Shown: in pieces, positions 10,626 through 64,000 of the stretch
How positions within the stretch are numbered: the first letter of the stretch is position 1
Layout: each line of letters opens with the position of its first letter
From: Agrobacterium rosae
GTDB lineage: Bacteria > Pseudomonadota > Alphaproteobacteria > Rhizobiales > Rhizobiaceae
Length of the DNA: 64,000 nt
NCBI RefSeq assembly: GCF_002915175.1
Contig: NZ_NXEJ01000013.1
Span: 1 to 64,000 of the forward strand
Reading direction: 5' to 3'
Notes under the pieces: generated by a model
What the model saw: only the letters and a program-made list of their open reading frames with translations
Told to the model about the DNA's origin: nothing
The model's database searches: none
Program-made: the position numbers and the translations under genes

Positions 10626-10647
10626 GGTAGAGGTGCATTTCGCCTTT

Positions 10648-10678
10648 AGCAATCTGTTCCCAACGTGAGCAGATTGCT
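10648..10678. terminator. 9-bp inverted repeat between converging virG and virC2
   Basis: AGCAATCTG (10648-10656) and CAGATTGCT (10670-10678) are perfect complements around a 13-base loop, lying between the convergent 3' ends of virG and virC2. No T-run follows on either side, so a factor-independent terminator is not certain; it may be a transcript-stabilising hairpin. Confidence 0.4.
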
Positions 10679-10766
10679 ATGCGGCTTGGCAAAGCTGCCT
10701 TTCCTCGGTACTATCCGAAAAACTCAGCACTGCGGAGTGATTGGATGGGTCCTATCTTTTGAGAGA

Positions 10767-34316: not shown

Positions 34317-35021
34317 TCTGTTTTCTATTCATGGATAGAAAACAACCCTAGTGTATGGGATCAATATAACCATGCTAGTGCCACTGTGTATCTCCCGATG
34401 AGACATGTAATGATATGGATGCATGTTTCATGCAAGGATAAGAATGTGATAAAAATAATTTAATAAAAATAAGTCCTTGATGCTTTTCTGAAACATCTTT
34501 GAGGAAGTATTATTTATTGAACAGATTTTACACAAATTGAAAATTCATCCTGGTGAAACAGCGTATTTTTTTGACAGAATCGTAATGATTCGTGAGACAA
34601 TGTGGGCCATCGTTTTCGGGCATCGAAAGCTGGCTTCGTCACGAGCCAAGCGAAGGCCCAAGCCTCAATTTTGCGATGAGCCAGGGAGGCACGCTACGTG
34701 TCTGTCAGCAATTATAGGACTATGGTGGATGCTTTTTGACAATGTGGCGATAAGGATCACCTCGATAAGCTCGAAACCTGCTTTATGTCATTCACATGTC
34801 AATTATCGAAAAAACGGCCCTACGCTCATCCAATAGTTAAGTAACGGGTCCTGTTTGTAGTTTAACAGACAGGAATGCTGTTTCCAGAAGGCATTTCAAC
34901 AGTATAAAGCCGTAAAATTACCATGATCACGTTCCCTGCACATGCGTTTTTCAGCTATAAAGCAAGATTCAATCTCTGGGGCTCCAAAGAGCTCCGGATG
35001 CTACACCCCTCATAAAGCTTA
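34317..35021. other. Intergenic T-DNA between two plast genes
   Basis: AT-rich, with a polyadenylation-type AATAAAA near 34,462 for the upstream gene and two TATAAAG boxes (about 34,902 and 34956-34962) for the downstream one. A 99-codon plus-strand frame at 34537-34836 has no recognisable motif; I do not count it as a gene. Confidence 0.5.
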
Positions 35022-35717
35022 ATGATGGTATATCAGCGTCCTGTTTTCAGGGTGATTAGCCTGCTGCGGATCCGGAACCGCGAAGAGGCCAAGCTCGTGC
35101 TGATCGGAGCAGTCGTGGTTTATCGCAATTTTGTGGAACAAACCTTGGCTGATGCCCAAAAAAATTGGGTCAAGTCACTCGTACTCTACGACGATCCGGG
35201 TGATGCTGTGACCGGAATCCTGACATGGTTCAGCAGGTGTGCATGCTTGCACGGACCGAGGTTGGGGCCGTTGGACACAATCGCCGTGAATGATAATCCG
35301 CTCTACATTTACTGTCCTCGCAGGAAGCTTGAGGAATATGCAAAAGAACGTATTGTGTCTTTTCATTCAGAGATCGGCTCGGTCGTGTGCTCCATGTCAC
35401 CCTTCGATGCAGGCGTGACGCGTGAGAAGGTCCGCTATGGGCATAACCTGATATCCCCAGGGTCTTGCCTCCTTCCGGATGCTTTGGAAGCCTATGTCGC
35501 CTTTCTCCCGAGCAAGTCGTTTCTGAAATTGCCATATAGCGTTTATGAGGTTCACAATGATCGTTATGTTCATAAGTTCTTTGCGCTGCTCCCAGGATCC
35601 CGCTTTCATTTTGAAGTCGTAGCGGTTGGTTTGGCCTATCCCGCTGCCAAAAAAAGGCCTTCTGGTCTTGGAATTCTGCGTTGTTGCTTCACCGGAAAGA
35701 CAAACACCTGCCTGTAA
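35022..35717 (+). CDS. Plast (RolB-family) T-DNA protein, gene 5-like N-terminus
   Basis: 231 aa. It begins MMVYQRPVFRVISLLRIRNR and resembles the gene-5-type protein at 39472 (MYHSRPIFNIIDSSNIQDRR) over its whole length, including the ITREKVR/ITKETMR-type segment, the PLYIYCP motif, AYVAFLPSKSF and the VVAVGLAY segment. The last 15 residues contain a Cys pair (RCCFTGKT). TATAAAG at 34956-34962 lies 66 bases before the ATG, a normal plant promoter distance. The two genes are likely duplicates. Confidence 0.75.
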   Translation: MMVYQRPVFRVISLLRIRNREEAKLVLIGAVVVYRNFVEQTLADAQKNWVKSLVLYDDPGDAVTGILTWFSRCACLHGPRLGPLDTIAVNDNPLYIYCPRRKLEEYAKERIVSFHSEIGSVVCSMSPFDAGVTREKVRYGHNLISPGSCLLPDALEAYVAFLPSKSFLKLPYSVYEVHNDRYVHKFFALLPGSRFHFEVVAVGLAYPAAKKRPSGLGILRCCFTGKTNTCL

Positions 35718-47848: not shown

Positions 47849-48916
47849 TCAACACATCTTCAGGTATAAGGCTCCCCATTTTGCGGTCAGATGCTCCGGA
47901 GAAAGTTCACCCATGCCCAATTTCTCCAGAGTTATGCCTGTCTCGTTGAAGTCTTCATTCGCGAGCTCAGAGGCATTGTCGAGGACCCAATCAATTGCAC
48001 TGGTGTCGATGTCGAACATCAGGGCTAGTTCCTTGAAAAGAGGCAGGATGCGACAGTCTTCCGTGAGGTATCGGTGCTTCATGTCCTTCGGCACCCCTTT
48101 CGTGGCATTGTGCGACGGGGAGTTGCAAGCAAATGATTCAAGATCCGGCTCGTTCATCCCGTACCAGCGGTTGTCGAGATCAATGGTACGCAGAACCTGA
48201 AAACCGAAACGTTCCACGATTTTAATTCTGACCTCATCGAGTAATTCCATTTTATCGCAAACCTCTTTTGTCATTCCACCCTTGTAGAAATAGAAATCCT
48301 CCTGATTTCTGATCCTGTCGGCGTTCATGATGACGGTAGCAGGGTGGAATATAACGTTGGTGTTCAGAAGGGCTACATCAAGAATATTGGCGCGCCACTC
48401 AACACCCCGGGGAAACAAGGAGCTAACCTCGTCACGAGTCTCTTCAGAGAGGGGATTGAGCGACGCTATTTCAATTATATTTTTTATCGCTTTTACATAG
48501 ATAGCCCCGTCCTCCCATCTGCAGCCATATGGTGCTGTGGAGGCCTCGATGGTTGCAGCAGTTGCAATAGGGTTTCCTAACAGGCTCGACATGTGCCCGG
48601 GCAACCAGAAGAGCAGTTTCTCGGTTAGGTCATAGTGATTCAGATAAGAGCTCAGTTCTTCACGCGCTCCCGCTTTTGAAGGAATGGTTACAAATACAGA
48701 TCGAGCGCTTTTGAGTGCAGCACCAAGGTCACTGTGTACTGTAGGCCAGAAATGCCCAGAAACAGCGCCCTTGGCTTTCAGCCCTTGATCGCGGAGGTTG
48801 GCGCTGTTGCCGGAGTGATGAGGATGTGTCCACAACGAGACTTCGCGGTCTCGATTGCAAAGGTCAGCAGTTAAAGCACAGCCCAAGGTGCCAGCACCGA
48901 TGATGAGTACAGCCAT
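47849..48916 (-). CDS. sus: T-DNA opine synthase of the octopine/nopaline dehydrogenase family (probably succinamopine synthase)
   Basis: 355 aa. The N-terminal Rossmann motif is VLIIGAGTLGCALTADL. The C-terminal NAD/NADP octopine-nopaline dehydrogenase domain has SPSHNATKG, PKDMKHRYLTEDC and an NTNVIFHPATVIMN segment (compare SNTNPVAHPA in octopine synthase); the conserved His in NVIFHPA is likely catalytic. These enzymes reductively condense an amino acid with an alpha-keto acid. It sits at the right end, where nopaline plasmids have nos, with a strong plant TATA box (48993-49000). Its substrate is inferred: a nopaline-like T-DNA lacking nos fits succinamopine (asparagine plus 2-oxoglutarate). 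Leucinopine- or vitopine-type synthases are alternatives. Confidence 0.75.
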   Translation of the reverse strand: MAVLIIGAGTLGCALTADLCNRDREVSLWTHPHHSGNSANLRDQGLKAKGAVSGHFWPTVHSDLGAALKSARSVFVTIPSKAGAREELSSYLNHYDLTEKLLFWLPGHMSSLLGNPIATAATIEASTAPYGCRWEDGAIYVKAIKNIIEIASLNPLSEETRDEVSSLFPRGVEWRANILDVALLNTNVIFHPATVIMNADRIRNQEDFYFYKGGMTKEVCDKMELLDEVRIKIVERFGFQVLRTIDLDNRWYGMNEPDLESFACNSPSHNATKGVPKDMKHRYLTEDCRILPLFKELALMFDIDTSAIDWVLDNASELANEDFNETGITLEKLGMGELSPEHLTAKWGALYLKMC

Positions 48917-48992
48917 TTGGTGAAAATATTGGCAATTGTTGTGTTTGATCGTTTTTGATGATGGGATACTTCGACAACCAAAGCCAACTTCT

Positions 48993-49000
48993 TATTTATA
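48993..49000 (-). promoter_or_regulatory. Plant-type TATA box of the right-end opine synthase
   Basis: Minus-strand TATAAATA, a consensus plant TATA box, 77 bases before the ATG at 48916. Confidence 0.7.
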
Positions 49001-49318
49001 AATCGTGAGGTGCGACTACGGTTCGATCTGCAAAGTCAGGAATGGCTGCCAACTGACGCTAAAAGTCTAGGAGCATGGGCCTCAACCTTTGAAAATTGAG
49101 GTGAGCTTATCTTCAAATGTCGCAGAATGACGGGTGCATTTGTTTTATCAGGAAATCTTCAATTTTTGTGGTCCCGACCAAGCTTTAATTTTCTTTCGTG
49201 GGTCCGCGTATGTTTGTCGTACGTGGAAAAACTGCATCGGAAGAAACTCCAGTGATATAAGGAAAGATGTATGATGCCAATGAATTTGCCCCTATTGTCT
49301 AGCTTCATGATGGCCAGG

Positions 49319-49343
49319 TGACAGGATATATCAAGCTGTAGCG
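49319..49343 (+). repeat. T-DNA right border (25-bp border repeat)
   Basis: Starts TGACAGGATATATC, a perfect match to the conserved 13-base core, then CAAGCT and GTAGCG. The last three bases depart from the consensus GTMAAN seen at the left border. It is a direct repeat of 30555-30579, making the T-DNA 18,789 bp long. No other copy of the core was seen in the window. Confidence 0.9.
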
Positions 49344-49348
49344 TACGT

Positions 49349-49360
49349 CTGTGCATTTGT
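49349..49360 (+). promoter_or_regulatory. Possible overdrive next to the right border
   Basis: CTGTGCATTTGT, five bases outside the right border, resembles the overdrive core CTGTRTNTGTTTGT with one base missing. Overdrive, bound by VirC1 and VirC2, normally lies just right of the right border. A second partial match (GTATGTTTGT, 49208-49217) is inside the T-DNA. Confidence 0.4.
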
Positions 49361-49433
49361 ACGTCCATATGGTCGGTTATTCCTCTCTGGGTGAACTCGT
49401 TAATATGAACGCAATGTGCATTTGCGTTAGAAA

Positions 49434-50531
49434 CTACGTGTAGCTCGTTTGAGCAATTTTGCCTTTGGCGTTGTATCCGTTCGGAACCAGACACTGCACT
49501 GCCGCCATGGTGTCGAAATCCAGCTCTCCGAGTAAGTTGTTATCGCCGGAAAGGGACCGCCCATAACAAGCATTCAGAATTTCAACGCCGCTTCGGTGCA
49601 AGGGAACGTCAACATCCGCGAGTTCTGCAAGTTGAATCGCAGGAACAAGACCAAATGGAACATCCTCGAGGACATACCTTGTTTCAGTGTCTGCCGGTCC
49701 CAAAGGGTCGTTACCGCGTTCCACAAGAATGGCAGAGGCCTCCGCGACACTGTCAGCCGTGATCCCGAAAGATTTGGCGAAATGATCAAGAATAGACGGG
49801 ACCAACTTTCCATAGGCCGACGCAATTGCGAGACGTTCCCTATCAATGGCCTCCACGAGCCTGCCAACGGTGGGCGTTACGTTGGTTCTCTGGCCCCAGC
49901 TTTCTTTTCGCTCGATACGAGTGAGATTGCATAATGCCGTTGCGAGATGGCTTTCAGGATTGGTGTTGCTAAGAACGATTGTGAGAATGTCGTCCTTGAC
50001 GGCGAAGCGGTCGCCGAACAGTTGTGCACATGTCTCCTGAGAGGAGACGGAGCAAGATACTGGGACCGCCGCGATGTCGACTTTACCTCTTATCGCCCCG
50101 ATTTTAACCTCGGTCGGAGACTGGGCTTTCGATGTCAAAACGGTGGTGTTCCAGACGACGATCGGGATCACAGTTCCACGTTCCGCCAGTTTCTTCGACA
50201 GATAAAGGGCTGAAAACGATAGGTGTGCACTGATTATGATTGTGTGTCGTTGCTCCAGGTGAGGGATCAGGCTGTCTAGAACGAAGCGATGGCCGTAAGC
50301 AGGTAGGGCCAACACAATGACGTCGCCCTCCGCCAAGTCTTTTGCATTCCGGCAAACGCCTGGATGAAATTCTCCGGTAATCACACCGGTGACCTTTAAC
50401 GGGGCACCCTCGACAAGCGCTTTCGTCCGTTGGCCGGACGGAGACCAGACGCTGACGTCGTGGCCGCGCTGCAGCAGAAAGGCTGCATATCCCATTGCGA
50501 TTGCGCCTGCCCCTGCTATTGTTGCCTTCAT
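49434..50531 (-). CDS. Bacterial opine dehydrogenase homologue outside the right border
   Basis: 365 aa from the ATG at 50531 (MKATIAGAGAIAMGYAAFLL), preceded by GAAAGG. It is of the octopine/nopaline dehydrogenase type, with an N-terminal dinucleotide fold, a middle SNTNPESHLATALCN segment (compare NTNVIFHPATV in the T-DNA synthase), and a C-terminal domain. It is outside the T-DNA, last in the minus-strand opine operon, 100 bases after the transporter ATPase gene. It could run in the oxidative direction on an opine or cleave a product, or it may be the ancestor type of the T-DNA synthase. Longer in-frame starts (50645) overlap the transporter gene. Confidence 0.75.
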   Translation of the reverse strand: MKATIAGAGAIAMGYAAFLLQRGHDVSVWSPSGQRTKALVEGAPLKVTGVITGEFHPGVCRNAKDLAEGDVIVLALPAYGHRFVLDSLIPHLEQRHTIIISAHLSFSALYLSKKLAERGTVIPIVVWNTTVLTSKAQSPTEVKIGAIRGKVDIAAVPVSCSVSSQETCAQLFGDRFAVKDDILTIVLSNTNPESHLATALCNLTRIERKESWGQRTNVTPTVGRLVEAIDRERLAIASAYGKLVPSILDHFAKSFGITADSVAEASAILVERGNDPLGPADTETRYVLEDVPFGLVPAIQLAELADVDVPLHRSGVEILNACYGRSLSGDNNLLGELDFDTMAAVQCLVPNGYNAKGKIAQTSYT

Positions 50532-50631
50532 TGGCGATGGCCTTTCAAAAAGAGGCCGACCACGAGATGTCGCGGTCGGTGTAGGTTTATGATTTTCGTG
50601 ATGTTGCGCCCTGTCGTGGGCGTGCGGTGCA

Positions 50632-52494
50632 TCAGTTTGTCTCATCCATCCTGACTAGATGCCCTTCCGAAACTTCACGGTACTGTCTTGCAGGGGGCTC
50701 ATAGCCAATCGGCCGGACCGGGCTTTTCAGTTCGTCGCTTGCGATGCCCCGCCGGATCCTGCGTCGCGCAGGATCCGGCACAGGTACCGCCGCCATAAGC
50801 TTCTTGGTGTACGGATGCTGGGGATTTTCGAACACGGCGGCGCGAGGTCCGATTTCGACGATCTCGCCGAGATACATGACCGCCACGCGATGGCTCACCC
50901 GCTCCACGACCGCCATATCGTGAGAGATGAAGAGGAAGGCGAGGTCGAGGCTCTGTTGCAGATCAAGCAACAGGTTACAAACCTGCGCTTTGATCGATAC
51001 GTCAAGCGCGGAAACCGCCTCGTCGGCAACGATGATCTTTGGGTCGAGCATCAGCGCGCGGGCGATGGCGACGCGCTGCCGCTGACCACCGGAAAACTCG
51101 TGGGGAAAACGCCTCATCATCTCGGGCGATAGCCCAACTTTTTCCATCAGTGCGGCGGCCTTGTCGCGCGCTTGCGATGCCGTTCCAAGCCGATGCTGAA
51201 TAAATGGCTCGACAAGGGCGCTGCCGATGCTCAGTCGCGGATTGAGTGAAGCATATGGATCCTGAAACACCATCTGGATCGAGCGACGCATTTTACGAAG
51301 CGAGGAATGATCGAGCTTCATGACATCGTGACCATCAATGACGACGTTGCCGCTAGTCGGATTCAGGAGACGTGTGATTGATCGGCCGGTCGTCGATTTG
51401 CCACAACCCGATTCCCCGACGAGTGAGAGGGTTTCTCCTTGGAAGAGGTTGAAGGACACCTTCTCGACCGCGTGCACGGCGCCTGCTTTTCGGCTGAAAA
51501 AGCCGGAACGTATGTTGAACCGCATTGTCAGGTCTTTGACATCGAGGATCGGCGCCTTGTGCCGGGCGACAGTATCGTTCACCTCGGCGAGCGGCTGTTC
51601 TTCGCCAGTCTTGCTGTCGACGATCGGGAACCGCAATGGCAGTTTCCGGTCCGCCATGGAGCCAAGGCGCGGTACAGCCGAAAGCAGCGCACGCGTGTAC
51701 GGATGTCTACCCCGATGGAAGATGTCGTCAGTCGCTCCTGTTTCCACCGCATCCCCGCGAAACATGACGATCGTTCGGTCCGCCACTTCCGCCACGACAC
51801 CCATATCGTGGGTAATGAAAAGGACCGAAGTACCTTCCTCTTCCTGCAGGGTCTTGATGAGATCAAGAATCTGACCCTGGATGGTCACATCCAACGCTGT
51901 TGTGGGCTCGTCGGCGATCAGCAGCTTCGGTTTGGAGGCGAGCGCCATGGCGATCATGACGCGCTGACGCATGCCCCCAGAGAACTGATGCGGATATTCG
52001 TCGTACCGGCCCTTGGCGTTGGGAATCCGAACCTTTTCAAGCAATCTCAGGACTTCGCCCTTGGCTTCAGCTGCGGAAATTTCTGTATGAACGGTCAGCG
52101 CTTCAGCGATCTGCTTGCCGATCGGGATGATCGGATTGAGCGAGGTCATTGGCTCCTGAAAGATCATTGAGATCTCATTGCCGCGGACCTGACGCATTTC
52201 CTCTTCCGGGAGCGAAAGGAGATTTCTTCCGGCAAGAATGACCTTCCCTTCCACTTTGCTCGACCGTGCCGCCAGAAGCCGCATGATGGAAAGCGAAGTG
52301 ACGGATTTGCCGGAGCCGGACTCTCCGACGATCGCCACAGTCTCACCGGGCGCGATATCGAACGAGATATTACGAATGACCTCTTTCCAGCCGTTCTCGA
52401 TCTTGAATGAGGTCGTCAGATCCTGGACGGAGAGCACCGGGGCAAAGTGGGCCGGAGTTCGGCCGGCGACGCTTTCTTGAATTGGCACGGTCAT
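50632..52494 (-). CDS. ABC transporter ATPase with two fused nucleotide-binding domains (peptide/opine type)
   Basis: 620 aa. Two DppD/DppF-like ATPase domains are joined: Walker A GESGSGKS near residue 57 with FSGGMRQR near 170, and Walker A GESGCGKS near 360 with FSGGQRQR near 470, both with DEPTT/DEAVS Walker B regions. The fusion replaces the usual pair of ATPases energising a dipeptide/opine importer. The start overlaps the upstream permease stop by 4 bases; all genes up to 58199 are coupled. Confidence 0.9.
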   Translation of the reverse strand: MTVPIQESVAGRTPAHFAPVLSVQDLTTSFKIENGWKEVIRNISFDIAPGETVAIVGESGSGKSVTSLSIMRLLAARSSKVEGKVILAGRNLLSLPEEEMRQVRGNEISMIFQEPMTSLNPIIPIGKQIAEALTVHTEISAAEAKGEVLRLLEKVRIPNAKGRYDEYPHQFSGGMRQRVMIAMALASKPKLLIADEPTTALDVTIQGQILDLIKTLQEEEGTSVLFITHDMGVVAEVADRTIVMFRGDAVETGATDDIFHRGRHPYTRALLSAVPRLGSMADRKLPLRFPIVDSKTGEEQPLAEVNDTVARHKAPILDVKDLTMRFNIRSGFFSRKAGAVHAVEKVSFNLFQGETLSLVGESGCGKSTTGRSITRLLNPTSGNVVIDGHDVMKLDHSSLRKMRRSIQMVFQDPYASLNPRLSIGSALVEPFIQHRLGTASQARDKAAALMEKVGLSPEMMRRFPHEFSGGQRQRVAIARALMLDPKIIVADEAVSALDVSIKAQVCNLLLDLQQSLDLAFLFISHDMAVVERVSHRVAVMYLGEIVEIGPRAAVFENPQHPYTKKLMAAVPVPDPARRRIRRGIASDELKSPVRPIGYEPPARQYREVSEGHLVRMDETN

Positions 52495-53365
52495 TGCGCG
52501 CTCCTTGTTTTCGGATCGATCGCGTCACGGAGCGCGTCACCAAGTATGTTGAGGGCGAGTACGGTAAGGAGAATGGCAAGCGAAGGAAACACAACGAGCC
52601 ACCATCCGCTCAGGATGTTTTCGAAACCCTCACGGATCATGCCGCCCCACGTGGCGGTTGGCGGCAGAACGCCAAGGCCGATGAAGGCCAGCGATGCTTC
52701 CGTTCGAATGGCGGAGGCCATCCAGAGCGATGCGACGACCACAATGTCCGATAGAATGTTCGGGAGTATATGAACGCCCATGATCCGGAGTGGCGAGAAA
52801 CCCAGCGACCGTCCCGCCTCAACGAAATCACGCCGTTTCATAGCAATCGTTGGTGCCCGGGCGACGCGAGCGAACGGTGCGGTCTCTGTGATTGCAATCG
52901 CGATGATTAGGTTCTCGAAGCTGGCACCGAGCATAGCGGCAACCATCAAGCCCAACAGAAGGGTGGGAAAGGACAGCATGACATCGACGATACCCATCAC
53001 AATCTGATCGAATATGCCGCCGATGTAGCCTGCCAGAATCCCCAGCGCAGACCCGACCACCATCGCAATCATGACGGACAGAAATCCGATGGATAGCGAG
53101 ATGCGCGCTCCGTAAAGGAGGCGGGAAAGAACATCTCGGCCATAACTATCGGTTCCCAACCAGAATTGTGCGGAGGGCGGGGTCAGTCGATGAAGAATAT
53201 TCTGCTTCAAGGGGTCGTATGGCGCGATAAGCGGCGCGAAAACGGCGAGCAAAATAATCAAGGTCAGAAGGCCAATGCCGATCCACGAAAAGCGGTTTCG
53301 ACGGAATGCCTTCAGGACCGGGTTTGGTTGCCGCTCTGGCGCGGCTTGGGAGACAGCGACGTCGG

Positions 53366-53369
<4 letters not shown>
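52491..53369 (-). CDS. ABC transporter permease (DppC type)
   Basis: 292 aa with about six membrane segments. The N-terminal ATLIAPYDP-type OppC signature appears as APLIAPYDPLKQN (about residues 46-58), followed by the EAA loop region ARVARAPTIAMKRRDFVEAG. With the neighbouring DppB-type permease it forms the import channel. The ATG overlaps the previous gene. Confidence 0.9.
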
Positions 53370-54303
<934 letters not shown>

Positions 54304-54307
<4 letters not shown>

Positions 54308-55425
54308 GCGGCGGCCCTTTCGATAGAGACGCGACCTGGGCAGAAGGCGTCCAGATTGGAATTTGTCTGACCATGACAGATCAGATCGGCGATAACTCTT
54401 CCGACAGAGGGCACAAGTTGGAACCCATGCCCGGAGAAGCCGAAAACATGGATCAAGCCTTCGACTTTTTTCGACAATCCGATGACCGGACGGTGGTCTG
54501 ACGTCATGGCTTCCATGCCCGCCCAGGTTCTGACGATCCGGACGTTCTGCAGTTCAGGAAAGACCCGGACCGCCGCTTGTACCGACGCCGCCAACGCGAC
54601 GACATCGACCGCCGCCGACTGCCTGTCGGCGGCAAGCCTGCCTTGCGATCCGCCGCCGATCAGGAGGGTGCCTTGGGATGTCTGCTTCAATGAAAGCTTC
54701 TTGCCGAACGAGCTGACGACCGGGCTGATTTTCGGGACGCTACGTTCCGTCACGACCATCATTGAGGTTCGGATCGCATGCTGTAGCGGATCTCCCGCGA
54801 GAGCCGAGACGTGATCCGCCCACGCGCCTGCCGCGTTGACGACGAGTTCGACTTCGAATGCGCCGCACGTCGTCTCGACGCGCCAACCGTTTTCCGATCG
54901 GATCATGGAGATCACCAGGCATTCTTCGGCGATCTTCACTCCGGCCTTGATGGCTGCGTCCCGGAATGCCCGGACAGCGCGATGCGGATCGGCGGAGCCG
55001 TCGCTCGACACCCAGGCGCCGCCCAGACAGTGGGCAGACAGACCGGGCAGAAGGCGTTGCATTTCCTCAGGGCCGACAAGCTTCTCGTGATGATGTCCCA
55101 TGGCTTCCAGCCGCTTGATGCGCGCCTCGATCTCGTTCAGAGACTGTTCGTCTTCCGCAACCTGTAACTGGCCGCAGGCGACGAAACCGCAGTCGTCACC
55201 GACGAGAGCTTCCATGCCATGCCAGGCTTCGGCAGCCTCGATGCTTAGGGGCAGTTCCGCTACATCCCGACCAAGTGTTCGCACGCCTGCGGCGGTTGCG
55301 CCGGAAGCGTGGCTTCCGAGAAAATGTCGCTCGACGAGGTGTACAGATACACCTCGTTGCGCTGCTTGCAGAGCGGCCGAAATACCGTGAAGACCACCTC
55401 CTATGACCAGGACGTCCGCATTCAT
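54304..55425 (-). CDS. FAD-dependent opine oxidase subunit (OoxB/NoxB-like)
   Basis: 373 aa of the DadA/glycine-oxidase fold. The N-terminal FAD motif is VLVIGGGLHGISAALQAA; the C-terminal FAD signature is HVFGFSGHGFQLVP. In octopine and nopaline plasmids a protein of this kind is the catalytic subunit that oxidises the opine C-N bond to release amino acid and keto acid. It overlaps the OoxA-like gene, as expected for the complex. Confidence 0.85.
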
Positions 55426-56801
55426 GTCGCACCTGCCACATCTTCCAGAGACGCGATTTCGCCAAGCGTAATCGGCTTGAGCGGCGGACGGATATGGAAG
55501 AAGTTCACGTCCTTGATCGGGAGATCATGAACCTCGGCCAGTAGTGCCTGGACCGTATAGCCGCATTGGCGACCCTGACAGGGCCCCATTCCGCAGCGCG
55601 TAGCAGCTTTGACTGCGCTCGGATCGGCGGGGCTGTTACGGGCGGCAGCTCGGATGGCCCCCGCAGTGACTTCTTCGCATCGACATACGACGACATCGTC
55701 GTCGAGCCGGTTCCGTGGAGGCGGGTACATAGCATCGAGGAACGGACGCAATGCGAAGGCTCTTTTACGGCGCTGATCGAGCTTAGATGCGCGGCGAAGG
55801 TTCTCTGTTTCTGAAGAAATTCCAAGTCTGCTGGCAATTCCAAGCGCAGCGATTTCTCCGGAGATAGTCGCGGCAAGCCAGCCCCCAATTCCGCCCGCAT
55901 CACCTGCAACGAAAAGCCCTTCGCGACTGGTTTCTCCCCATCGATCTAGCTTCGCCGCCAGATATCCCTGCTCCTCGTTCCAGTGGTGATCACAGTTCAG
56001 CGCCAGGGTCTCATGGATACGCGGCACGATACCTTCATGGACCAACAGCACGTCCGCTTCAACGCGATGACGCTTTCCCTTCGCTTCCCATGTGAGATAC
56101 TTCAGACACTGGTCGCCGTCGGCTCGCAGGTCAGAGAAACCCCGAACCATCATGCCGCTACGTTTTATGTCGCGGAGCCAGCGCAGTCCTTTGAGCAGGC
56201 CGCCGAAGTCCCTCCAGGCTCGCGGCAATCGACTTACGGCAGACAATTTCGGGGATGCCGCAGTATCGAGATAGCCGGCTATACGTCCACCAAGATTCAG
56301 GAACTGGGTGGCATAGAGGAGTGGCAATGGTCCTGCACCGGCGATCCAGACCTTGCCTTCTGGCAACATTCCACCAGATTTCAGAAGGATCTGGGCGGCT
56401 CCCACCGTCATAACTCCTGGCAGCGTCCAACCTTCAAACGGTACAGGTCGTTCTTGTGCGCCGTTTGAGAGCAGCACCGCGCGAGCCGTGATACGACGCG
56501 CCTTGCCCTCCGATGTAAGGAAAAGGCTCCAGGAGTCTTCAATCTGCCAGACTTGAGTTGACGGGAGATATTCCACGCCGGATGCGCGAAAAGCCGCGGT
56601 AAGCGCCTGACCTTTCTGGTAGTCTGTGCCAAGAGCTTCAAAAACCGGGCTTTTTACGTTGCGCTCGACACCGCGGAATATCTGCCCTCCCGGCGATGGT
56701 TGTTCATCAATGACAACCACAGAGGCACCCAGCTCACGCAAACGTATCGCGGCGCTCATTCCGGCCGGCCCGGCCCCGACGATTGCGACGTCATAGTTCA
56801 T
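55422..56801 (-). CDS. FAD/NAD(P)-type opine oxidase subunit with [2Fe-2S] Cys motif (OoxA/NoxA-like)
   Basis: 459 aa. It starts with an FAD-binding motif (VAIVGAGPAGMSAAIRLREL), has a second dinucleotide-binding region (VWIAGAGPLPLLYA, about 152) and FVAGDAGGIGGWLAA (about 298). The C-terminal Cys cluster (VVCRCEEV then RCGMGPCQGRQC) is a BFD-type [2Fe-2S] domain. This architecture is that of OoxA/NoxA, the electron-accepting subunit of opine oxidase. Confidence 0.85.
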   Translation of the reverse strand: MNYDVAIVGAGPAGMSAAIRLRELGASVVVIDEQPSPGGQIFRGVERNVKSPVFEALGTDYQKGQALTAAFRASGVEYLPSTQVWQIEDSWSLFLTSEGKARRITARAVLLSNGAQERPVPFEGWTLPGVMTVGAAQILLKSGGMLPEGKVWIAGAGPLPLLYATQFLNLGGRIAGYLDTAASPKLSAVSRLPRAWRDFGGLLKGLRWLRDIKRSGMMVRGFSDLRADGDQCLKYLTWEAKGKRHRVEADVLLVHEGIVPRIHETLALNCDHHWNEEQGYLAAKLDRWGETSREGLFVAGDAGGIGGWLAATISGEIAALGIASRLGISSETENLRRASKLDQRRKRAFALRPFLDAMYPPPRNRLDDDVVVCRCEEVTAGAIRAAARNSPADPSAVKAATRCGMGPCQGRQCGYTVQALLAEVHDLPIKDVNFFHIRPPLKPITLGEIASLEDVAGAT

Positions 56802-57109
56802 CGTGAAATCTCCCGGGGTCCGCGCTGACTTTCAATACGCATCCCGTGGCGAACTGGGACGAGACACCCCTGTGTTGACGCAATGCCATCAACGATGGCG
56901 AGACACTCGAAACACACTCCCATTTGACAGTAAGGAAGCCGTGGTTTGCCGCTGACGGGAGAGCGACGTCCCGCTTCCGGAACGCGCAGCAGCACGCTGG
57001 CAACGGTTTCGCCTTCCCAAGCGATGGTCTCGACGCCATTGACTAGGATGGTCATGTCAGCCGTCTTGTCCGGCCGCTCAAGCACACTTTTGAACATCGA
57101 ATCTTCCAT
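56798..57109 (-). CDS. Small [2Fe-2S] ferredoxin-like subunit of the opine oxidase
   Basis: 103 aa. A thiol pattern YCQMGVCFECLAIVDG followed later by QGCLVP is a truncated plant-type ferredoxin ligand set, as in the small subunit of heterotrimeric hydroxyproline/opine-type dehydrogenases. It is encoded between two flavoprotein genes and overlaps both. An in-frame ATG at 57097 is an alternative start. Confidence 0.85.
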   Translation of the reverse strand: MEDSMFKSVLERPDKTADMTILVNGVETIAWEGETVASVLLRVPEAGRRSPVSGKPRLPYCQMGVCFECLAIVDGIASTQGCLVPVRHGMRIESQRGPREISR

Positions 57110-58199
57110 TTGAAAAAGCGGACAGGTCAGTAGACAACCGGCCTTCGATCATTGCAGGCGCCACGATAGCGGCATGGGCAGCGGCCAACGTCACGCCCGA
57201 GTGACAAGCGGCCGCAAAGAGGCCGGGATATTCCTCGGATTGAGCGTATATCGGCGTACCGTCGGGTGGCAGAACCCGGAAGCCGCTCCACTGGCGGACA
57301 AGACGCGCTGACGCCAGAGCAGGAATTATCCGCGTTGCGCGCAAGGCCAGCTTCGTTGCCGAAGCAACAGTAACACCGCGATCTGTGACATTTTCCTTCG
57401 TCGCACCGATCATTACAGTGCCATCGGACGTCTGCCTCAGTCCGCTTGCAGGATAGGGAAGGAGTGGTTCAATGCGTTCCGTAACAAGCAACTGACCACG
57501 ATCTGCTTTAAGCGGAATTTTGAAGCCAAGCGGGTCTGTAAGCGAAGGCGTCGCATGCCCGGCAGCGACGATAACACATGGTGCTTTATAGCTTCCAAGC
57601 GCTGCGGTGACGGTAAATCCGTCAGCGCCGGGAGTGATGGATTGTACGGTGTTGCGGAACAGAATTTTTCCACCGTGAGCAGTCACACCTCGTTGCATGG
57701 CGGCAAGAAGCTGTAATGGGTTCACGTGACCATCAGCCTTACAGTAACTTGCTCCGACGACCTCCGGCCCGAATGCGACTGCTGGCATCATTCGCTCTAG
57801 CTCAGAGCGATCGACCATCCTCAAATCGCTTGCAGACAGGTAATTGTGTGTCCGCTTATTGAGTGTTTCTCGATTTTCGTATTCGGTTTCGCTGAGACAG
57901 TAAACAAAGCCTCCTGGTCGGGAGTAGTCGATACCAACACCCGCCGATTCAGCCAACTCTTGAACAAAATCCGGCCACAGATCGGAACTTTCACCCGTTA
58001 ACTGCTGGTAAGCTGGGGCGTTTGCGCCCTTTCCCTGGGTCCAGACGAGCCCGAAATTCGCACGCGCGGCACGCATGTCCTGATCCTGTCCATCCAGGAC
58101 GATGACGCGTTTCCCGAGTTTGGCTATCCCGTAGGCCAGCGCGGAGCCAACAACGGCCCCGCCCACTACAATTACTTCTGCGTCCACCTTGATCTCCAT
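57078..58199 (-). CDS. Second FAD-dependent amine/opine oxidase-like protein
   Basis: 373 aa. FAD motif VIVVGGAVVGSALAYGIAKL at the N-terminus and SGVTLAAAHAAIVAPAM near the end place it with DadA/ThiO-type enzymes. It is the first gene of the minus-strand operon. The ATG at 58199 (MEIKVDAEV) gives the correct N-terminus; the reading frame is open up to 58517 but that part is antisense to the regulator gene. Its substrate may be a released amino acid or a different opine stereoisomer. Confidence 0.8.
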   Translation of the reverse strand: MEIKVDAEVIVVGGAVVGSALAYGIAKLGKRVIVLDGQDQDMRAARANFGLVWTQGKGANAPAYQQLTGESSDLWPDFVQELAESAGVGIDYSRPGGFVYCLSETEYENRETLNKRTHNYLSASDLRMVDRSELERMMPAVAFGPEVVGASYCKADGHVNPLQLLAAMQRGVTAHGGKILFRNTVQSITPGADGFTVTAALGSYKAPCVIVAAGHATPSLTDPLGFKIPLKADRGQLLVTERIEPLLPYPASGLRQTSDGTVMIGATKENVTDRGVTVASATKLALRATRIIPALASARLVRQWSGFRVLPPDGTPIYAQSEEYPGLFAAACHSGVTLAAAHAAIVAPAMIEGRLSTDLSAFSNGRFDVQKCA

Positions 58200-58281
58200 C
58201 AAATTGTTGCTGAGCTTAGGAAAGCGAGGTAGAAAGTCAAAGTCGTTTATTTCTGTGCGGTATTCGTAGAGGTTATAGCCA
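58200..58281. promoter_or_regulatory. Divergent promoter of the LysR regulator and the opine operon
   Basis: The 82-bp gap separates the LysR gene from the eight-gene minus-strand operon, the classic arrangement for LysR autoregulation plus activation. I did not find a clear T-N11-A palindrome. Confidence 0.5.
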
Positions 58282-59184
58282 ATGAGATATCCAAGTTTGC
58301 GGCAGCTCGAGGCACTCATGGCAGTGGTCGAGTCAGGCACGGTAAGCCGTGCCGCCGATGTCCTTCGGATTTCACAACCTGCCGCAAGCAAGCTCATCCA
58401 AGATCTGGAGGCAGATACAGGCTTGCAACTCTTCGAGCGCGAAAGTGGCCGGCTGGTACCGACAGGCCGCGGTATGCGCCTGTATGAGGAGGTCGAACGG
58501 ATATTTGGTGGCGTCAATCAACTCGCGCGCGCCGTGGATGCAATTCGTCGCGAGGAGCACGGGCATATCCTGATAGGCACCATGCCAGCCCTATCAGGGC
58601 CGTTTATCACCCGGGCGATTGCAGGCTTCAAGGCGCGGCATCCAGATGTTTTTGTCTCCATCGAGGCGCGTAGCTCGCAGTTTTTGACAGAAGCAGTGCT
58701 GCTTCGTCGGTTAGATGTGGCGCTTGTTGTGAGTGGATTAGAACACTCGTCGGTGCAGATTGATCGGGTGAAATGTCCGCCGTATGTCGTGGCGATGCCG
58801 CTAGGTCACAGGCTATCCGGCAAGTCAGAGCTGTCCCCAACCGATCTCCAGGATGAACCATTTATCGCGTTTGCGCCGAGAGGGATGACACGAAGCAATC
58901 TTGATGCTGTCTTCGAACGTTTCGGAGTGATTCCAAATATCGTGATTGAGGCGACTACTGCTCCAAATGTTACAGAGATGGTGGCAGCCGGATTGGGTGT
59001 GACTGTCGCCGATCCACTAGCCCTAGAGCATGTCGCCGGTCGGATCGAAGTCAGGCCTTTCAGGCCGGTCGTTGAGTCAGATTACGTGCTTATTCGCCCG
59101 CTTCGAGCAAGAAACAGCGTTTTGGTTGCCGACTTCGTGGAGGAAATTCACGTCGCTGCACAATCACCGAAAGTCTCGGTTTAA
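58282..59184 (+). CDS. LysR-type regulator of the opine locus
   Basis: 300 aa. The winged helix-turn-helix is at residues 4-62 (LRQLEALMAVVESGTVSRAA ... QPAASKLIQDLE), followed by the effector-binding domain (about 90-295). In Ti plasmids OccR and NocR, of the same family, activate opine operons in response to the opine. Divergent from the catabolic operon, so it probably controls it with the opine as signal. Confidence 0.85.
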   Translation: MRYPSLRQLEALMAVVESGTVSRAADVLRISQPAASKLIQDLEADTGLQLFERESGRLVPTGRGMRLYEEVERIFGGVNQLARAVDAIRREEHGHILIGTMPALSGPFITRAIAGFKARHPDVFVSIEARSSQFLTEAVLLRRLDVALVVSGLEHSSVQIDRVKCPPYVVAMPLGHRLSGKSELSPTDLQDEPFIAFAPRGMTRSNLDAVFERFGVIPNIVIEATTAPNVTEMVAAGLGVTVADPLALEHVAGRIEVRPFRPVVESDYVLIRPLRARNSVLVADFVEEIHVAAQSPKVSV

Positions 59185-59190
59185 AAAGCT

Positions 59191-59225
59191 CCCGGCATGG
59201 CAACTCTGTTGTTGCCAATGCCGGG
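59191..59225 (-). terminator. Intrinsic terminator after the binding-protein gene
   Basis: CCCGGCATGGCAAC and GTTGCCAATGCCGGG form a 14-bp stem with one bulged base; on the minus strand it is followed by GAGCTTTTT. It lies between the ends of the converging LysR and binding-protein genes. Confidence 0.8.
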
Positions 59226-59245
59226 ATTTAGTCGGGGAAGTGAGA

Positions 59246-60805
59246 TCAGCGGCTGATGGTTGTTTGTTCGGTGATAGGCGGCGAAAGGTTCAAGGAACCC
59301 GTGAGATCGTAGCCGTAGTTGAGAGCCTTGCTGCGAACCCAGACCTGCATCAGGCTGAAAAGAGGTACGCTGCATACCTGTTCGCTAATTTTCTTTTGGG
59401 CGGCAGACCAAAACTTCAACCGTTCCTCGTCGGTTGCGGCCTTTCGTGCTGCCGTGATATCGGCGTCACCGGCATCACAGTGAGCAAAATTGGTCACGGC
59501 AGTCGGCTTCCCGACTGATGCGTCGGAGTGATAAAACTGGCTGAGGTAGCTATCAGCTACTGGATAACGCGCAGCGCCATAAAAGACGATATCACTGAGG
59601 TCCTTTCGGATTTGCTCATGGTAGGTCGGATGATCTACGACTTTAAGTTCAAGAGCAATGCCAACTTCGGCCAGCTGCGCCTGAATAACTTCCATGATGG
59701 GTAACTGTGTCGTGTTCGACGATACGATTGCTGACAGCTTCAAGCTGTTACCAACGCCGGCCTCTTTAAGAAGCTTTTTCGATAGATCCGGATCATAGTT
59801 GTACGTCCATGCGCAATCTTCGCCAAGATAGCCGGACGGGACAACTGAGCAGCCTTTGACTGCCACGGAGGCTCCAACAAACTGGATGATCTGATCGACG
59901 TTCACGGCATGGGCGATTGCCTGGCGAATTTTCACATTGTCCAGTGGCTTGTGTTGGATATTCAAAAATACCGTACGGTATTCACCTGGGGCAAAAACAT
60001 CGACGACTGCGCCGTCCCACGTTTTTGCCTGATCGACCCAACGCTGCTCGCGTTTGCCGTAAATGAGATCGAGCTCGCCAGATCGGAATGCAAGCTCGCG
60101 GCTCGAATCCGATGGAATCAAATCGACCCGAATGTCGTCGATTTTCGGTTTCCCACGGAAGTATTCCGGAAATGCTTTCAGATATACCGACTGCTGCGTG
60201 ACGGCTTTGTCAAATGTGAATGGGCCGGTCCCGATCGGACTGCTCTTGAAATTAGCCCCCATTTTTTCAACGGCTTTTTTGCTCACAATATTGCCGCCGT
60301 GATAGTTCGCGATCAGGCCGAGAAAACCGGGAACTGGTTCGCTGAGAACGATGCGAACGGTCGCGGGATCGACGGCTTCGATCGTTTTGAACGCTGCATA
60401 GTCGCTCGCGTAAGCGGAAGTTTCCGGATTTTTAGCCCGTTCAAGTGAAAAGACGACGTCGTCAGCGGTAAGCGTACCGTAGTTACCGTGGAACTTCACA
60501 TCCTTGCGAAGCTTGAACGTCCAAGTGAGACCGTCGGCAGAGCTGGTCCAGCTCTCTGCAAGATCGGGTTCGATTTTTGATGGGTCGGCCGTACCTGGAG
60601 TGAACCGGACAAGGCCGTTGAACATCCAGGACACGACGGTCAGATCCTGGGTCGTGGTGGCACGCGCGGGATCCATATTGGTGATGTCCGGTGCTTGGAC
60701 ACCAACTCGCAGGGTTTCTGCGTACGCGCTAGATGTGAACGACGTTCCGGCCATCAAGCACGACGCCATCGCGATAACAGCTCCCGCTTTTACTATGTTG
60801 ATCAT
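59246..60805 (-). CDS. Periplasmic opine/peptide-binding protein of the ABC transporter
   Basis: 519 aa SBP family 5 (DppA/OppA type). A signal peptide (about residues 1-33, ending SSAYA|ET) is followed by LRVGVQAPDITNMDPARA and the family motif GLTWTFKLRKDVKFH. The ATG at 60805 has GGAG 8 bases upstream; the frame is open to 61000. It is not in the same transcript as the permeases (the LysR gene lies between) but is the matching binding protein. Confidence 0.88.
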   Translation of the reverse strand: MINIVKAGAVIAMASCLMAGTSFTSSAYAETLRVGVQAPDITNMDPARATTTQDLTVVSWMFNGLVRFTPGTADPSKIEPDLAESWTSSADGLTWTFKLRKDVKFHGNYGTLTADDVVFSLERAKNPETSAYASDYAAFKTIEAVDPATVRIVLSEPVPGFLGLIANYHGGNIVSKKAVEKMGANFKSSPIGTGPFTFDKAVTQQSVYLKAFPEYFRGKPKIDDIRVDLIPSDSSRELAFRSGELDLIYGKREQRWVDQAKTWDGAVVDVFAPGEYRTVFLNIQHKPLDNVKIRQAIAHAVNVDQIIQFVGASVAVKGCSVVPSGYLGEDCAWTYNYDPDLSKKLLKEAGVGNSLKLSAIVSSNTTQLPIMEVIQAQLAEVGIALELKVVDHPTYHEQIRKDLSDIVFYGAARYPVADSYLSQFYHSDASVGKPTAVTNFAHCDAGDADITAARKAATDEERLKFWSAAQKKISEQVCSVPLFSLMQVWVRSKALNYGYDLTGSLNLSPPITEQTTISR

Positions 60806-61433
60806 GTTCCACTCCATTTTTTTGATTTCGCACCGAATTATTTGAAAAATCACAATAAGTGTCAAAGTCGATATTTTGGGGGGTGTATCTGGAAAAGTTA
60901 TAGTTGGAGTGGACGGCGAAGCGCCAAATTGGTCGCATCGGACGAGTGTCGCGGAACGTGTCCACGAGTGGTGATCGCGATTAGTGGAGGTCCTTTGCAC
61001 AGGCGTTCAGGTCTTCCGAAGAACGACGGACACAAACATCTGCCGCGGATCATTCCAAGCATGCACGACGATGTGCCAAATTGGTCAGGAAATGGATTAT
61101 CGATCTGTTGGGTCGAGTTTCTTGATCAAAACGGATGCTCTTGATACGACGCTTTTTCCCTTACAAAATATTCCGAAGCTGAAATGGTTCGCACGCTAAG
61201 TCACTGAGACCATAACCATCTTGCATCCCTTTGGGAGCCATAGCCGCTCCTTCGTATCAGTCGGCTTCCAGCCAGATTGATTATAGAAATCACTAAATGT
61301 CGGCGATTCTCACCTTTACCTTCGGATGTAAGTGTCGAACTTTCGGCCAACTCCCCGTCAGATAGACGAGGCCATCGCTGAAGTTGGCCCGTTTGCAGCA
61401 ATGGCGGATGCGTTCACTTTGTAGGGAAGCCAG
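60806..61433. other. Divergent intergenic region, binding protein and hydantoinase genes
   Basis: 628 bases with no credible gene; short frames here lack motifs. It must contain the promoters of both divergent genes. An AGGGA ribosome site precedes the gene at 61434. Confidence 0.5.
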
Positions 61434-63548
61434 ATGCTTATAGAAACAACTCCTGAAGTACCAACCAGCGCTCCGCTACGGTCCTCAGAATCGACGCGCT
61501 CATCCAGGTATCTTCGTATTGGTGTAGATATTGGTGGCACATTCACCGATTTTTGCGGTTGGCGCGACGAGGCCGGAAGCGAAGTTGTCTCATTCAAAGT
61601 CCCTTCCACACCCCCCAATTTTGAAGAGGGGTTTCGGGCTGGATTTGAGCGGATTCTCGAATTGCTCGAACCGAAAGAAGACGAAATCGCTCTGGTGATG
61701 CACGGAACCACGGTCAGCACAAACGCGGTGATCGAACGCGCAGGTCCGAAAATTGCGCTGTTCGTGACCAAGGGCTACCGCGACATTCTCGAATTGCAGC
61801 GCATCAGAGTTCCCAATGCGCTCAACTTGTTCGAGCGCCGGACTGTGCCGTTGATTGAAAGAAATTTCGTCATCGAAGTTGATGAGCGCTTGCTGCGCGA
61901 AGGCGAACTCGACAAGCCGCTCGACAAGGAAGAGGTTTCGGAACTCGCCAAAAAGGCCGCGGCCGCAGGGGCAACCGGTTTTGCCGTGGCATTTCTCCAC
62001 AGCTACACCAACCCCGAGCATGAAATTCTCGCGCGTGACGCAATCCGTGAGGCACTTGGGGAAGATACCCGTGTCAGCCTGTCCAGCGAGATTTGGCCGC
62101 GGATGGGGGAATACGAGCGCACCATCGCCGCTGTTTTGAACGCTTTTGTAAAGCAGCGCATGGACGAATATCTGGGCGCTGTCGAAAGCTATGTGGCAAA
62201 GCGGCTGCCGGGCTCTCACCTGTTCATCACCCGCTCGAATGGTGGTGCGATGTCCGCAGCAGAAGCTCGCGCCTTTCCGATCCACACATTGTTATCCGGA
62301 CCGGCATCAGGCGTGACTGCTGCCGAATTTCTCGGCCGCTCGATCAAGGAAGATAACCTTCTGACCTTGGATATGGGTGGAACGAGTACCGACATTTCGC
62401 TCATTCGTGAAGGTCGAGGCCAGACATCGAATTCGGCAGAAGTCGGCAATTTCCCCGTGATTCTCCCGGTTTCTGAGATCGAAGCAATCGGTGCGGGAGG
62501 TGGTTCGATTATTGCCATGGACGGCTCCGCGTTGCGCGTTGGCCCCCGCAGTGCCGGTTCCTATCCAGGCCCCGCATGCTTCAGACGCGGTGGCGCCGAG
62601 CCGGCACTTACCGACGCCTATCTTCTGTCGGGCTATTTGCCGGAAGCGCTTTTGGGCGGCGCCATGAAGCTCGACCGGGATGCTTCGGTCCGTGCGCTCA
62701 CGCCTGTTGCCGAGCATCTAGGCATCGCTGTCGAAGCTGTCGCCGACATGGCGGTTACCATCGCAACATCAAACATGGTTGCTGGGGTCCTGCCATACCT
62801 AGCCCGTAAAGGCGTTGATGCCGAAGACCTGACACTGCTTGTTTATGGCGGCGGCGGCGCGATCCACGGGCCGCTCGTTGCTAGCGAAATCGGCATTAAT
62901 CGCATTCTTGTGCCTGCATCTCCCGCTGTCTTCTGCGCGCTCGGGGGGTTGGTGTCGGAACTCAGCGAAGATGTCTTGGCCAGCGTCCAAGGGCGCGTTC
63001 TGAGTGCGCAGGACGTGACTTCGACATTCGCTGACCTGGCCACGCAGGCGAAAGACTGGCTCTCTCGGCAGATTGAGTCGGAGAAGCTAGCGAGCGTTTC
63101 GATCGAGCACTGGGCCGAAATGCGTTATGCTGGTCAGTCATTCCAGATTGACGTTGAACTGCCTGAACAGGCGGTCCTGAATGCAGACTTTCTCGCCATG
63201 ATGGAGGCATTCCATACCGAGCATCTGCGGACTTTCAGCTACGCCAATCCTACGGGTGCCATTGAGTTTGTTGCCCTGCGTGTCCGAATTAACGGACGCC
63301 TGGCCGTTCCGCAAATGTCGATATCCACGAGGGAAGCAACTGGCACGGCTCATATTGCTACCCGGGACATGCGATTTAATGGCACCGTGTATCCGGCGAC
63401 AAAAGTCTATGAGCGTGACGCTCTGGGTCGCGACAGTCTCATCATCGGGCCGGCTGTCATCCAGCAGGTTACCGCGACGGTCGTGGTACCGCCCGACTAT
63501 TCTGCGCGCATCGATGCGTATGACAACATCATCATTTCCAAGGACTGA
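61434..63548 (+). CDS. Hydantoinase A/5-oxoprolinase-family ATPase, subunit A
   Basis: 704 aa. The ASKHA-type phosphate motifs RIGVDIGGTFTDFCG (about residue 26) and LLTLDMGGTSTDISLI (about 309) are typical of N-methylhydantoinase/5-oxoprolinase/acetone carboxylase alpha-type proteins, which open a lactam or hydantoin ring using ATP. The GPASGVTAAEFLG motif and the C-terminal region also match. It lies next to an opine transporter, so the substrate may be the pyroglutamate-like lactam form of an opine; that is an inference. Subunit B follows after 4 bases. Confidence 0.85.
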   Translation: MLIETTPEVPTSAPLRSSESTRSSRYLRIGVDIGGTFTDFCGWRDEAGSEVVSFKVPSTPPNFEEGFRAGFERILELLEPKEDEIALVMHGTTVSTNAVIERAGPKIALFVTKGYRDILELQRIRVPNALNLFERRTVPLIERNFVIEVDERLLREGELDKPLDKEEVSELAKKAAAAGATGFAVAFLHSYTNPEHEILARDAIREALGEDTRVSLSSEIWPRMGEYERTIAAVLNAFVKQRMDEYLGAVESYVAKRLPGSHLFITRSNGGAMSAAEARAFPIHTLLSGPASGVTAAEFLGRSIKEDNLLTLDMGGTSTDISLIREGRGQTSNSAEVGNFPVILPVSEIEAIGAGGGSIIAMDGSALRVGPRSAGSYPGPACFRRGGAEPALTDAYLLSGYLPEALLGGAMKLDRDASVRALTPVAEHLGIAVEAVADMAVTIATSNMVAGVLPYLARKGVDAEDLTLLVYGGGGAIHGPLVASEIGINRILVPASPAVFCALGGLVSELSEDVLASVQGRVLSAQDVTSTFADLATQAKDWLSRQIESEKLASVSIEHWAEMRYAGQSFQIDVELPEQAVLNADFLAMMEAFHTEHLRTFSYANPTGAIEFVALRVRINGRLAVPQMSISTREATGTAHIATRDMRFNGTVYPATKVYERDALGRDSLIIGPAVIQQVTATVVVPPDYSARIDAYDNIIISKD

Positions 63549-63552
63549 AAAC

Positions 63553-64000
63553 ATGCGCGCTATTCGTACTATGGTTATGAACAATCGCTTCAAGGCAATT
63601 GTCGAAGAAGCTTCTGCTTGTGTTTACCGCACGGCCCGCACAACCTTCGTCAAGATCGTGCAGGACTATCAATGCGCGGTTGCCACGGCCGATGGCGACA
63701 TGTTCGCGTTTCCGGATCAGTCGGGTGTTAAGCAGTTCATCGGCGTTCCAATGGCTGCAACGATCAACAAGATCGGAAAGGAGAACTTCAAGCCCGGTGA
63801 TATTTTCATCACCAACGATCCGTTCGCCACGGAAGGTTTGTTGACCCATCTGATGGACCTCACGATGATCCGGCCCATCTTCTACAAAGGCGAACTGATT
63901 GCCTTTGGCTGGGCCTTCATTCACGCAACCGATATCGGTGGGGCGGTTCCCGGTAGTATTTCGCCTGCCTTCACGGAGGTTTTCCAGGAAGGCCTTCGTG
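63553..64000 (+). CDS. Hydantoinase B/oxoprolinase-family subunit B (partial, runs off the window)
   Basis: At least 149 residues from the ATG at 63553; the family is about 550-650 residues, so most lies beyond the window. NNRFKAIVEEASACVYRTAR and GDIFITNDPFATEGLLTH are the HyuB N-terminal motifs. It forms the heteromeric enzyme with the preceding gene. No strong ribosome site is visible in the 4-base gap, so translation is probably coupled. Confidence 0.85.
   Translation, partial: MRAIRTMVMNNRFKAIVEEASACVYRTARTTFVKIVQDYQCAVATADGDMFAFPDQSGVKQFIGVPMAATINKIGKENFKPGDIFITNDPFATEGLLTHLMDLTMIRPIFYKGELIAFGWAFIHATDIGGAVPGSISPAFTEVFQEGLR

Follow-up and report, generated by a model that had tools for sequence, protein, structure and literature searches.

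A hydantoinase-family gene pair in the opine cluster of a pTiEU6-type Ti plasmid of Agrobacterium rosae as a candidate lactam-opine hydrolase

The window, by which we mean the whole stretch of 64,000 nucleotides that was analysed, opens a contig of 235 kb in the host genome. A DNA search with its positions 48500-64000 found 174 plasmid records; identity was 99% or more for 32, including NZ_KX388535 (pTiEU6), to which the match is full-length with 100.0% identity as printed. The host replicon is therefore a Ti plasmid of the pTiEU6 kind, the succinamopine type. To the left of the opine region lies a T-DNA with iaaH, ipt, RolB-family genes and an opine-synthase-family gene, and on the far side trb genes come after the MmgE/PrpD gene. 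The features are as follows, the last four being given in contig positions past the window end.

49434-50531, minus strand: octopine/nopaline-dehydrogenase-family protein, outside the T-DNA
50632-52494, minus strand: double ATPase of the opine ABC transporter
52491-54307, minus strand: two permeases of the opine ABC transporter
54304-55425, minus strand: second DAO-family flavoprotein
55422-56801, minus strand: OoxA/NoxA-like flavoprotein of the opine oxidase
56798-57097, minus strand: [2Fe-2S] protein of the opine oxidase
57078-58319, minus strand: DAO-family flavoprotein of the opine oxidase
58318-59184, plus strand: LysR-type regulator within the uptake/oxidase cluster
59246-60817, minus strand: solute-binding protein of the opine ABC transporter, divergent from hyuA
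61434-63548, plus strand: hyuA, ATP-binding subunit of the hydantoinase/oxoprolinase family, 704 amino acids
63571-64000, plus strand: 5' part of hyuB, metal-site subunit, cut by the window end and running to contig position 65538
contig 65833-66846: asparaginase, downstream of hyuB
contig 66924-67973: second LysR gene, on the strand opposite to hyuAB
contig 68085-71918: second ABC transporter, spermidine/putrescine-type
contig 72002-73324: MmgE/PrpD-family gene

The gap between the solute-binding gene and hyuA (60817-61433) is conserved in pTiCFBP4996 as two islands, one bordering each gene, and poorly so between them; the island next to hyuA contains TGATTATAGAAATCA, a LysR-like palindrome.

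An earlier note on this DNA had described a hydantoinase/5-oxoprolinase-type pair beside an opine transporter and oxidase, and both parts of that description hold. The hyuA reading frame is intact over 704 codons, 22 bases separate its end from the start of hyuB, which continues past the window, and the minus-strand neighbours include the transporter, OoxA/NoxA-like, [2Fe-2S] and DAO genes. Against Pfam models, HyuA reaches 286 bits for Hydantoinase_A, with further matches to Hydant_A_N and Hydant_A_C, and HyuB reaches 429 bits for Hydantoinase_B; the Hydant_A_N, Hydantoinase_A and Hydantoinase_B domains are all above the Pfam cut-offs. Among solved proteins, HyuA is nearest to N-methylhydantoinase and to the caprolactamase alpha subunit (listed as 5-oxoprolinase), followed by carboxylases, and HyuB gives the same ranking. 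An ATP-dependent carboxylase of the acetone or acetophenone carboxylase kind, as the distant similarity of HyuA to the acetophenone carboxylase gamma subunit (E 3.9e-76) might suggest, is nevertheless extremely improbable, since hydantoinase and caprolactamase outscore the carboxylases for both subunits and the carboxylase models remain far under their cut-offs (261 of 1500 and 196 of 1250 bits); this identity was rejected on the scores.

In caprolactamase, Asp11 and Asp295 of CapA were described as important and Asp41, His99, Asp102 and His124 of CapB as essential (PMC8453981). The ATP-site aspartates are present in HyuA, where Asp32 and Asp313 align with CapA Asp11 and Asp295, and the counterparts of the CapB metal ligands are HyuB Asp32, His93, Asp96 and His118, an Asp-His-Asp-His set conserved in all 43 aligned rows (42 loci, the window protein having been entered twice). 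The curated NCBIfam caprolactamase cut-off of 1000 bits for each subunit is not reached (455.8 bits for HyuA and 242.5 for HyuB), which we count against a role in lactam opening.

At E up to 1e-150, HyuA matched 116 plasmid records: 32 at 99% identity or more, one at 91%, 65 at 60-80% and 18 below 60%. Four records at 60-80% and four of lower identity were opened. The former comprise two nopaline regions, in which hyuAB is divergent from the oxidase and accompanied by arginase and ornithine cyclodeaminase, and two succinamopine-like clusters, on pAtCFBP4996a and in A. vitis CG957. The latter comprise pAvF25c and pRi2659, in which hyuAB adjoins histidine-degradation genes, a plasmid from Paraburkholderia where genes of this sort are found near hyuAB, and pAt2788b. 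Since the Pfam cucumopine-synthase C-terminal domain occurs in two proteins neighbouring hyuAB on pAvF25c, we read the pAvF25c and pRi2659 loci as cucumopine-type. These two proteins of A. vitis pAvF25c (L012, positions 8664-9611 and 10015-10977) lie beside hut genes and hyuAB with no T-DNA seen around them, and they may run the synthase reaction backwards, freeing histidine.

In a tree of 42 HyuA sequences, the window protein forms a clade at 100/99 with those of pTiCFBP4996, pAtCFBP4996a, four nopaline loci, genome G264 and pAt2788b, and a 98/94 clade further takes in the cucumopine-type pair and the Paraburkholderia protein, while three mannityl-type HyuA form a separate branch. The tree excludes CG957, which was found later, and stretch L010, which ends at the start of a hyuA already covered by L050. 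One HyuA clade thus spans succinamopine-type, nopaline and cucumopine-type loci, which differ in the amino-acid half of the opine and in the neighbouring degradation genes.

Several of these loci deserve separate description. In genome G264, a 16.5 kb contig (L055) holds hyuAB, both LysR genes, the oxidase, the dehydrogenase-family gene and a second ABC transporter, 73-83% identical to those of the window and adjoining a transposase gene; no asparaginase was seen in that stretch, and the contig ends where the MmgE/PrpD gene would be. A. leguminum CFBP4996 carries two succinamopine-like clusters, one on its pTi and one on its pAt (L009; L010/L050), both with hyuAB and an MmgE/PrpD gene, with differing second ABC transporters and with an asparaginase seen in one only. 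Finally, pAt2788b has a further opine-like locus at 138000-168000 (L099), with oxidase genes directly beside a 38% HyuA; an amidase, a further MmgE/PrpD gene and a fragmented second set of oxidase genes are also present.

In order to compare the surroundings of hyuA, we scored an oxidase as present where an OoxA/NoxA-like gene and a DAO gene, each at 40% identity or more, lay in the same stretch. This was so at eight of the nine loci of the 100/99 clade, in several gene orders, pAt2788b being the exception; for this count the oxidase of the window was taken from the window's own annotation, and the two neighbouring stretches of pAtCFBP4996a were read together. Neither of the two cucumopine-type loci had such an oxidase, nor did any of eight other loci at 39-51% identity. 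The controls were the 18 next-best Rhizobiaceae matches (36-39% identity) and two further hyuA of the own genome, leaving out two shorter own-genome matches on contig 22, and gave none in 20 at the 40% cut, or one in 20 if L071 is counted, in which an OoxA-like gene (39.9%) and a DAO gene (43%) lie 3.6-6.3 kb beyond hyuB. The lack of a nearby OoxA-type oxidase at pAt2788b and at the two cucumopine-type loci, clade members all, was also counted against the lactam role.

In the noc region, pAtCFBP4996a, G264 and CG957, a LysR gene adjoins hyuB as well, and the one beyond hyuB on the plasmid studied here shares 54-61% identity with these, but is distinct from the regulators next to oxidase or transport genes. 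A search at E up to 1e-70 found it on 99 plasmid records, against 98 records with HyuA at 60% or more, a comparison of totals and not record by record. By these similarities hyuAB has a LysR-type neighbour of its own, conserved across opine classes, which would be the candidate for its control, and the pair may respond to a separate signal, possibly the lactam. A regulatory link through shared DNA motifs was set aside, as just short common words and isolated palindromes appeared. This separate neighbour, the divergence of hyuAB from the oxidase operon and the spermidine/putrescine type of the second transporter could also mean that HyuAB, that transporter and the MmgE/PrpD protein serve a separate pathway for another tumour compound and are mere neighbours of the succinamopine genes. 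However, the oxidase lies near hyuA in eight of nine loci of the clade against one in 20 controls even when the one at about 40% identity is admitted, and nopaline regions carry hyuAB with neither the second transporter nor the MmgE/PrpD gene, so that we consider such a pathway very unlikely.

The association was also examined in the reverse direction, with 15 OoxA-like matches in 12 chosen plasmid records scored for a hyuA within 20 kb. Both succinamopine-type clusters and the single nopaline cluster have one, as do three of four remaining matches (CG957 and the two pAt2788b oxidase genes beside the 38% HyuA), the fourth being without. None of the four octopine clusters, recognised by annotated occ genes, has a hyuA in that range. 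Octopine is pyruvate-derived and unable to form this five-membered lactam, and the absence of hyuA near its clusters therefore fits a lactam role. The same absence was found at all four leucinopine-like clusters, namely pTi6.2 and three whose opine is inferred from similar genes, and a search of pTi6.2 with an E limit of 1e-20 found no hyuA. Tumours of pTi6.2 contain leucinopine (PMC10410297), and leucinopine can also cyclise (PMC4192606), so that this absence does not fit a simple rule. The rule that hyuAB goes with every alpha-ketoglutarate-derived opine was accordingly rejected on pTi6.2 and the three similar clusters. The earlier note had considered succinamopine and leucinopine together as opines whose lactams the pair might open; the succinamopine part is supported by family, residues, clade, octopine clusters and asparaginase, but leucinopine as a substrate class is not supported by the gene content of these plasmids.

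HyuAB could also hydrolyse a small breakdown product, such as free D- or L-pyroglutamate or a hydantoin arising after cleavage, rather than the lactam opine, given that its relatives act on small lactams and hydantoins. We regard this as unlikely. The genome carries three LamB_YcsF genes, which we take to be PxpA-type genes already serving free 5-oxoproline, and no hyuA lies within 20 kb of the octopine clusters, whose oxidase is of the same type. Moreover, opine cleavage by flavin oxidases of this kind gives alpha-ketoglutarate and an amino acid, as described for nopaline (PMC4192606), so that no pyroglutamate would arise.

Opening of lactam opines is consequently the best reading of the family, the retained catalytic residues, the clade shared with nopaline and cucumopine-type loci, the octopine clusters and the adjoining asparaginase, and it is from these that we infer the substrate of HyuAB, its direction and the mechanism in this enzyme. 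HyuAB is, in our estimation, probably an ATP-dependent hydrolase of succinamopine and succinopine lactams. The two subunits would together form a lactam hydrolase for ring-closed (pyroglutamate-type) succinamopine and its succinopine equivalent, in which HyuA would activate the lactam carbonyl with ATP and the metal site of HyuB would open the ring to give the open imino-diacid. The opine oxidase could then cleave the open form to alpha-ketoglutarate and asparagine or aspartate, and the adjoining asparaginase would handle the asparagine.

The idea is not new, having been printed in 2019 for the same gene pair: Shao et al. (PMC6733357) proposed lactam-opine opening for hyuA and hyuB of pTiEU6 (AgrTiEU6_30 and AgrTiEU6_31), and the same role was suggested for a rideopine region (PMC8554961). 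The pair does lie in an opine catabolic cluster, as that proposal leads one to expect. Shao et al. also state that tumours of such strains contain succinamopine and succinopine lactams; the earlier note had remarked that lactam opines have been reported in tumours. That note knew of no established role for the family in opine catabolism, but the role had been put forward in both papers. Our search of the open-licence literature found no biochemical or genetic test of the role proposed for hyuAB.

The published physiology of C58 bears on the nopaline member of the clade. C58 can live on pyronopaline as its only source of carbon and nitrogen, through the Noc pathway, NocT binds pyronopaline (0.6 uM) more tightly than nopaline (3.7 uM), and a nocT mutant does not grow and an ocd mutant grows poorly (Lang et al. 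2014, PMC4192606). That C58 has hyuAB in its nopaline region and grows on this lactam speaks for the lactam role. However, the scheme in the same paper, whose main text has no word beginning with "hydantoin", draws the conversion between nopaline and pyronopaline as spontaneous, and a ring-opening enzyme may therefore be dispensable.

Shao et al. (PMC6733357) likened the MmgE/PrpD neighbour to 2-methylcitrate dehydratase. The sole PrpD model that it matched gave 38.9 of 950 bits, under the curated cut-off, and all ten solved sequences related to it at E up to 0.001 are cis-aconitate decarboxylase/IRG1 or iminodisuccinate epimerase; on these scores the published label is poorly supported and probably wrong. 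At E up to 1e-25, members of the close subfamily turn up on 35 of 72,556 plasmid records, all of which also carry hyuA: 32 of the pTiEU6 type, pTiCFBP4996, CG957 and pAtCFBP4996a. Read by eye, the subfamily gene is within 9 kb of hyuA in 34 records; in the remaining one, NZ_KY000069, the distance is about 23 kb, counted across the record start. Among 394 Rhizobiaceae genomes, only the Agrobacterium rosae genome under study has it at E up to 1e-40. More distant members lie near hyuAB on pAvF25c, pRi2659 and pAt2788b, and one, annotated in two pieces, directly follows the mannityl-type hyuAB of pTi_CFBP1873, while pTiC58, the octopine Ti plasmid and pAoF64/95 gave no match at E up to 1e-6. A member is present in one of the 20 control stretches (L077), and genome G049, outside the control set, has one about 8 kb from a 37% hyuA.

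The catalytic residues of iminodisuccinate epimerase are His85, Asp88, His99, Tyr145, His150, Lys198 and Lys266 (PMC7347537, PMC12290011). In an alignment read by eye, the MmgE/PrpD protein keeps Asp88, His99 and Lys266, has Ile for His85, His for Tyr145 and Arg for His150, and aligns ambiguously at Lys198. Succinopine and iminodisuccinate are both imino-diacids, which makes it a fair guess that the protein epimerises or isomerises the opine or its lactam, though the specific idea of an opine epimerase is a bold one. It is conceivable, and we put it forward tentatively as rather less probable than not, that HyuAB and its LysR-type regulator make up a portable lactam-opine module, often joined by the second ABC transporter and by the MmgE/PrpD protein as a new proton-transfer enzyme, likeliest an opine or lactam epimerase or isomerase, which would ready the stereochemistry needed by HyuAB or the oxidase. 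Against such a module stand the nopaline regions without MmgE/PrpD, the control stretch that has one and the several differing active-site residues.

Opines are the private food by which Agrobacterium profits from its own tumours, and if part of an opine closes to the lactam in the plant, a strain able to open the ring could eat what others cannot. Compared by residues and scores with CapAB of Pseudomonas jessenii, a two-subunit ATP-dependent lactam hydrolase, HyuAB keeps the catalytic residues, but each subunit scores less than half of the NCBIfam cut-off. The mannityl-opine region of the octopine Ti plasmid, also an opine plasmid, likewise has a hydantoinase-family pair with an FAD oxidoreductase and ABC transporters as neighbours, although at 33-35% identity and on a separate branch of the tree; we take this pair to be agaF/agaG. 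The agaF and agaG genes of octopine-type plasmids are described as converting agropinic acid, a lactam, to mannopinic acid. The noc pair of pTiC58 (31704-35699 of its Ti plasmid) is closer, with a 62% identical HyuA, the same divergence from the oxidase genes and a LysR gene after hyuB, but the noc region has arginase and ornithine cyclodeaminase and lacks the asparaginase, the second transporter and the MmgE/PrpD gene. Lastly, hyuA and hyuB of pTiEU6 are the same locus as that of the window, with the same proposed role and no gene difference, and to that published proposal our data add a HyuA clade common to several opine classes, a LysR neighbour that is conserved, an MmgE/PrpD subfamily of confined distribution, and both the octopine control and the leucinopine exceptions; the comparison turns the published guess into a testable rule, with octopine clusters as its control and leucinopine clusters as its exceptions.
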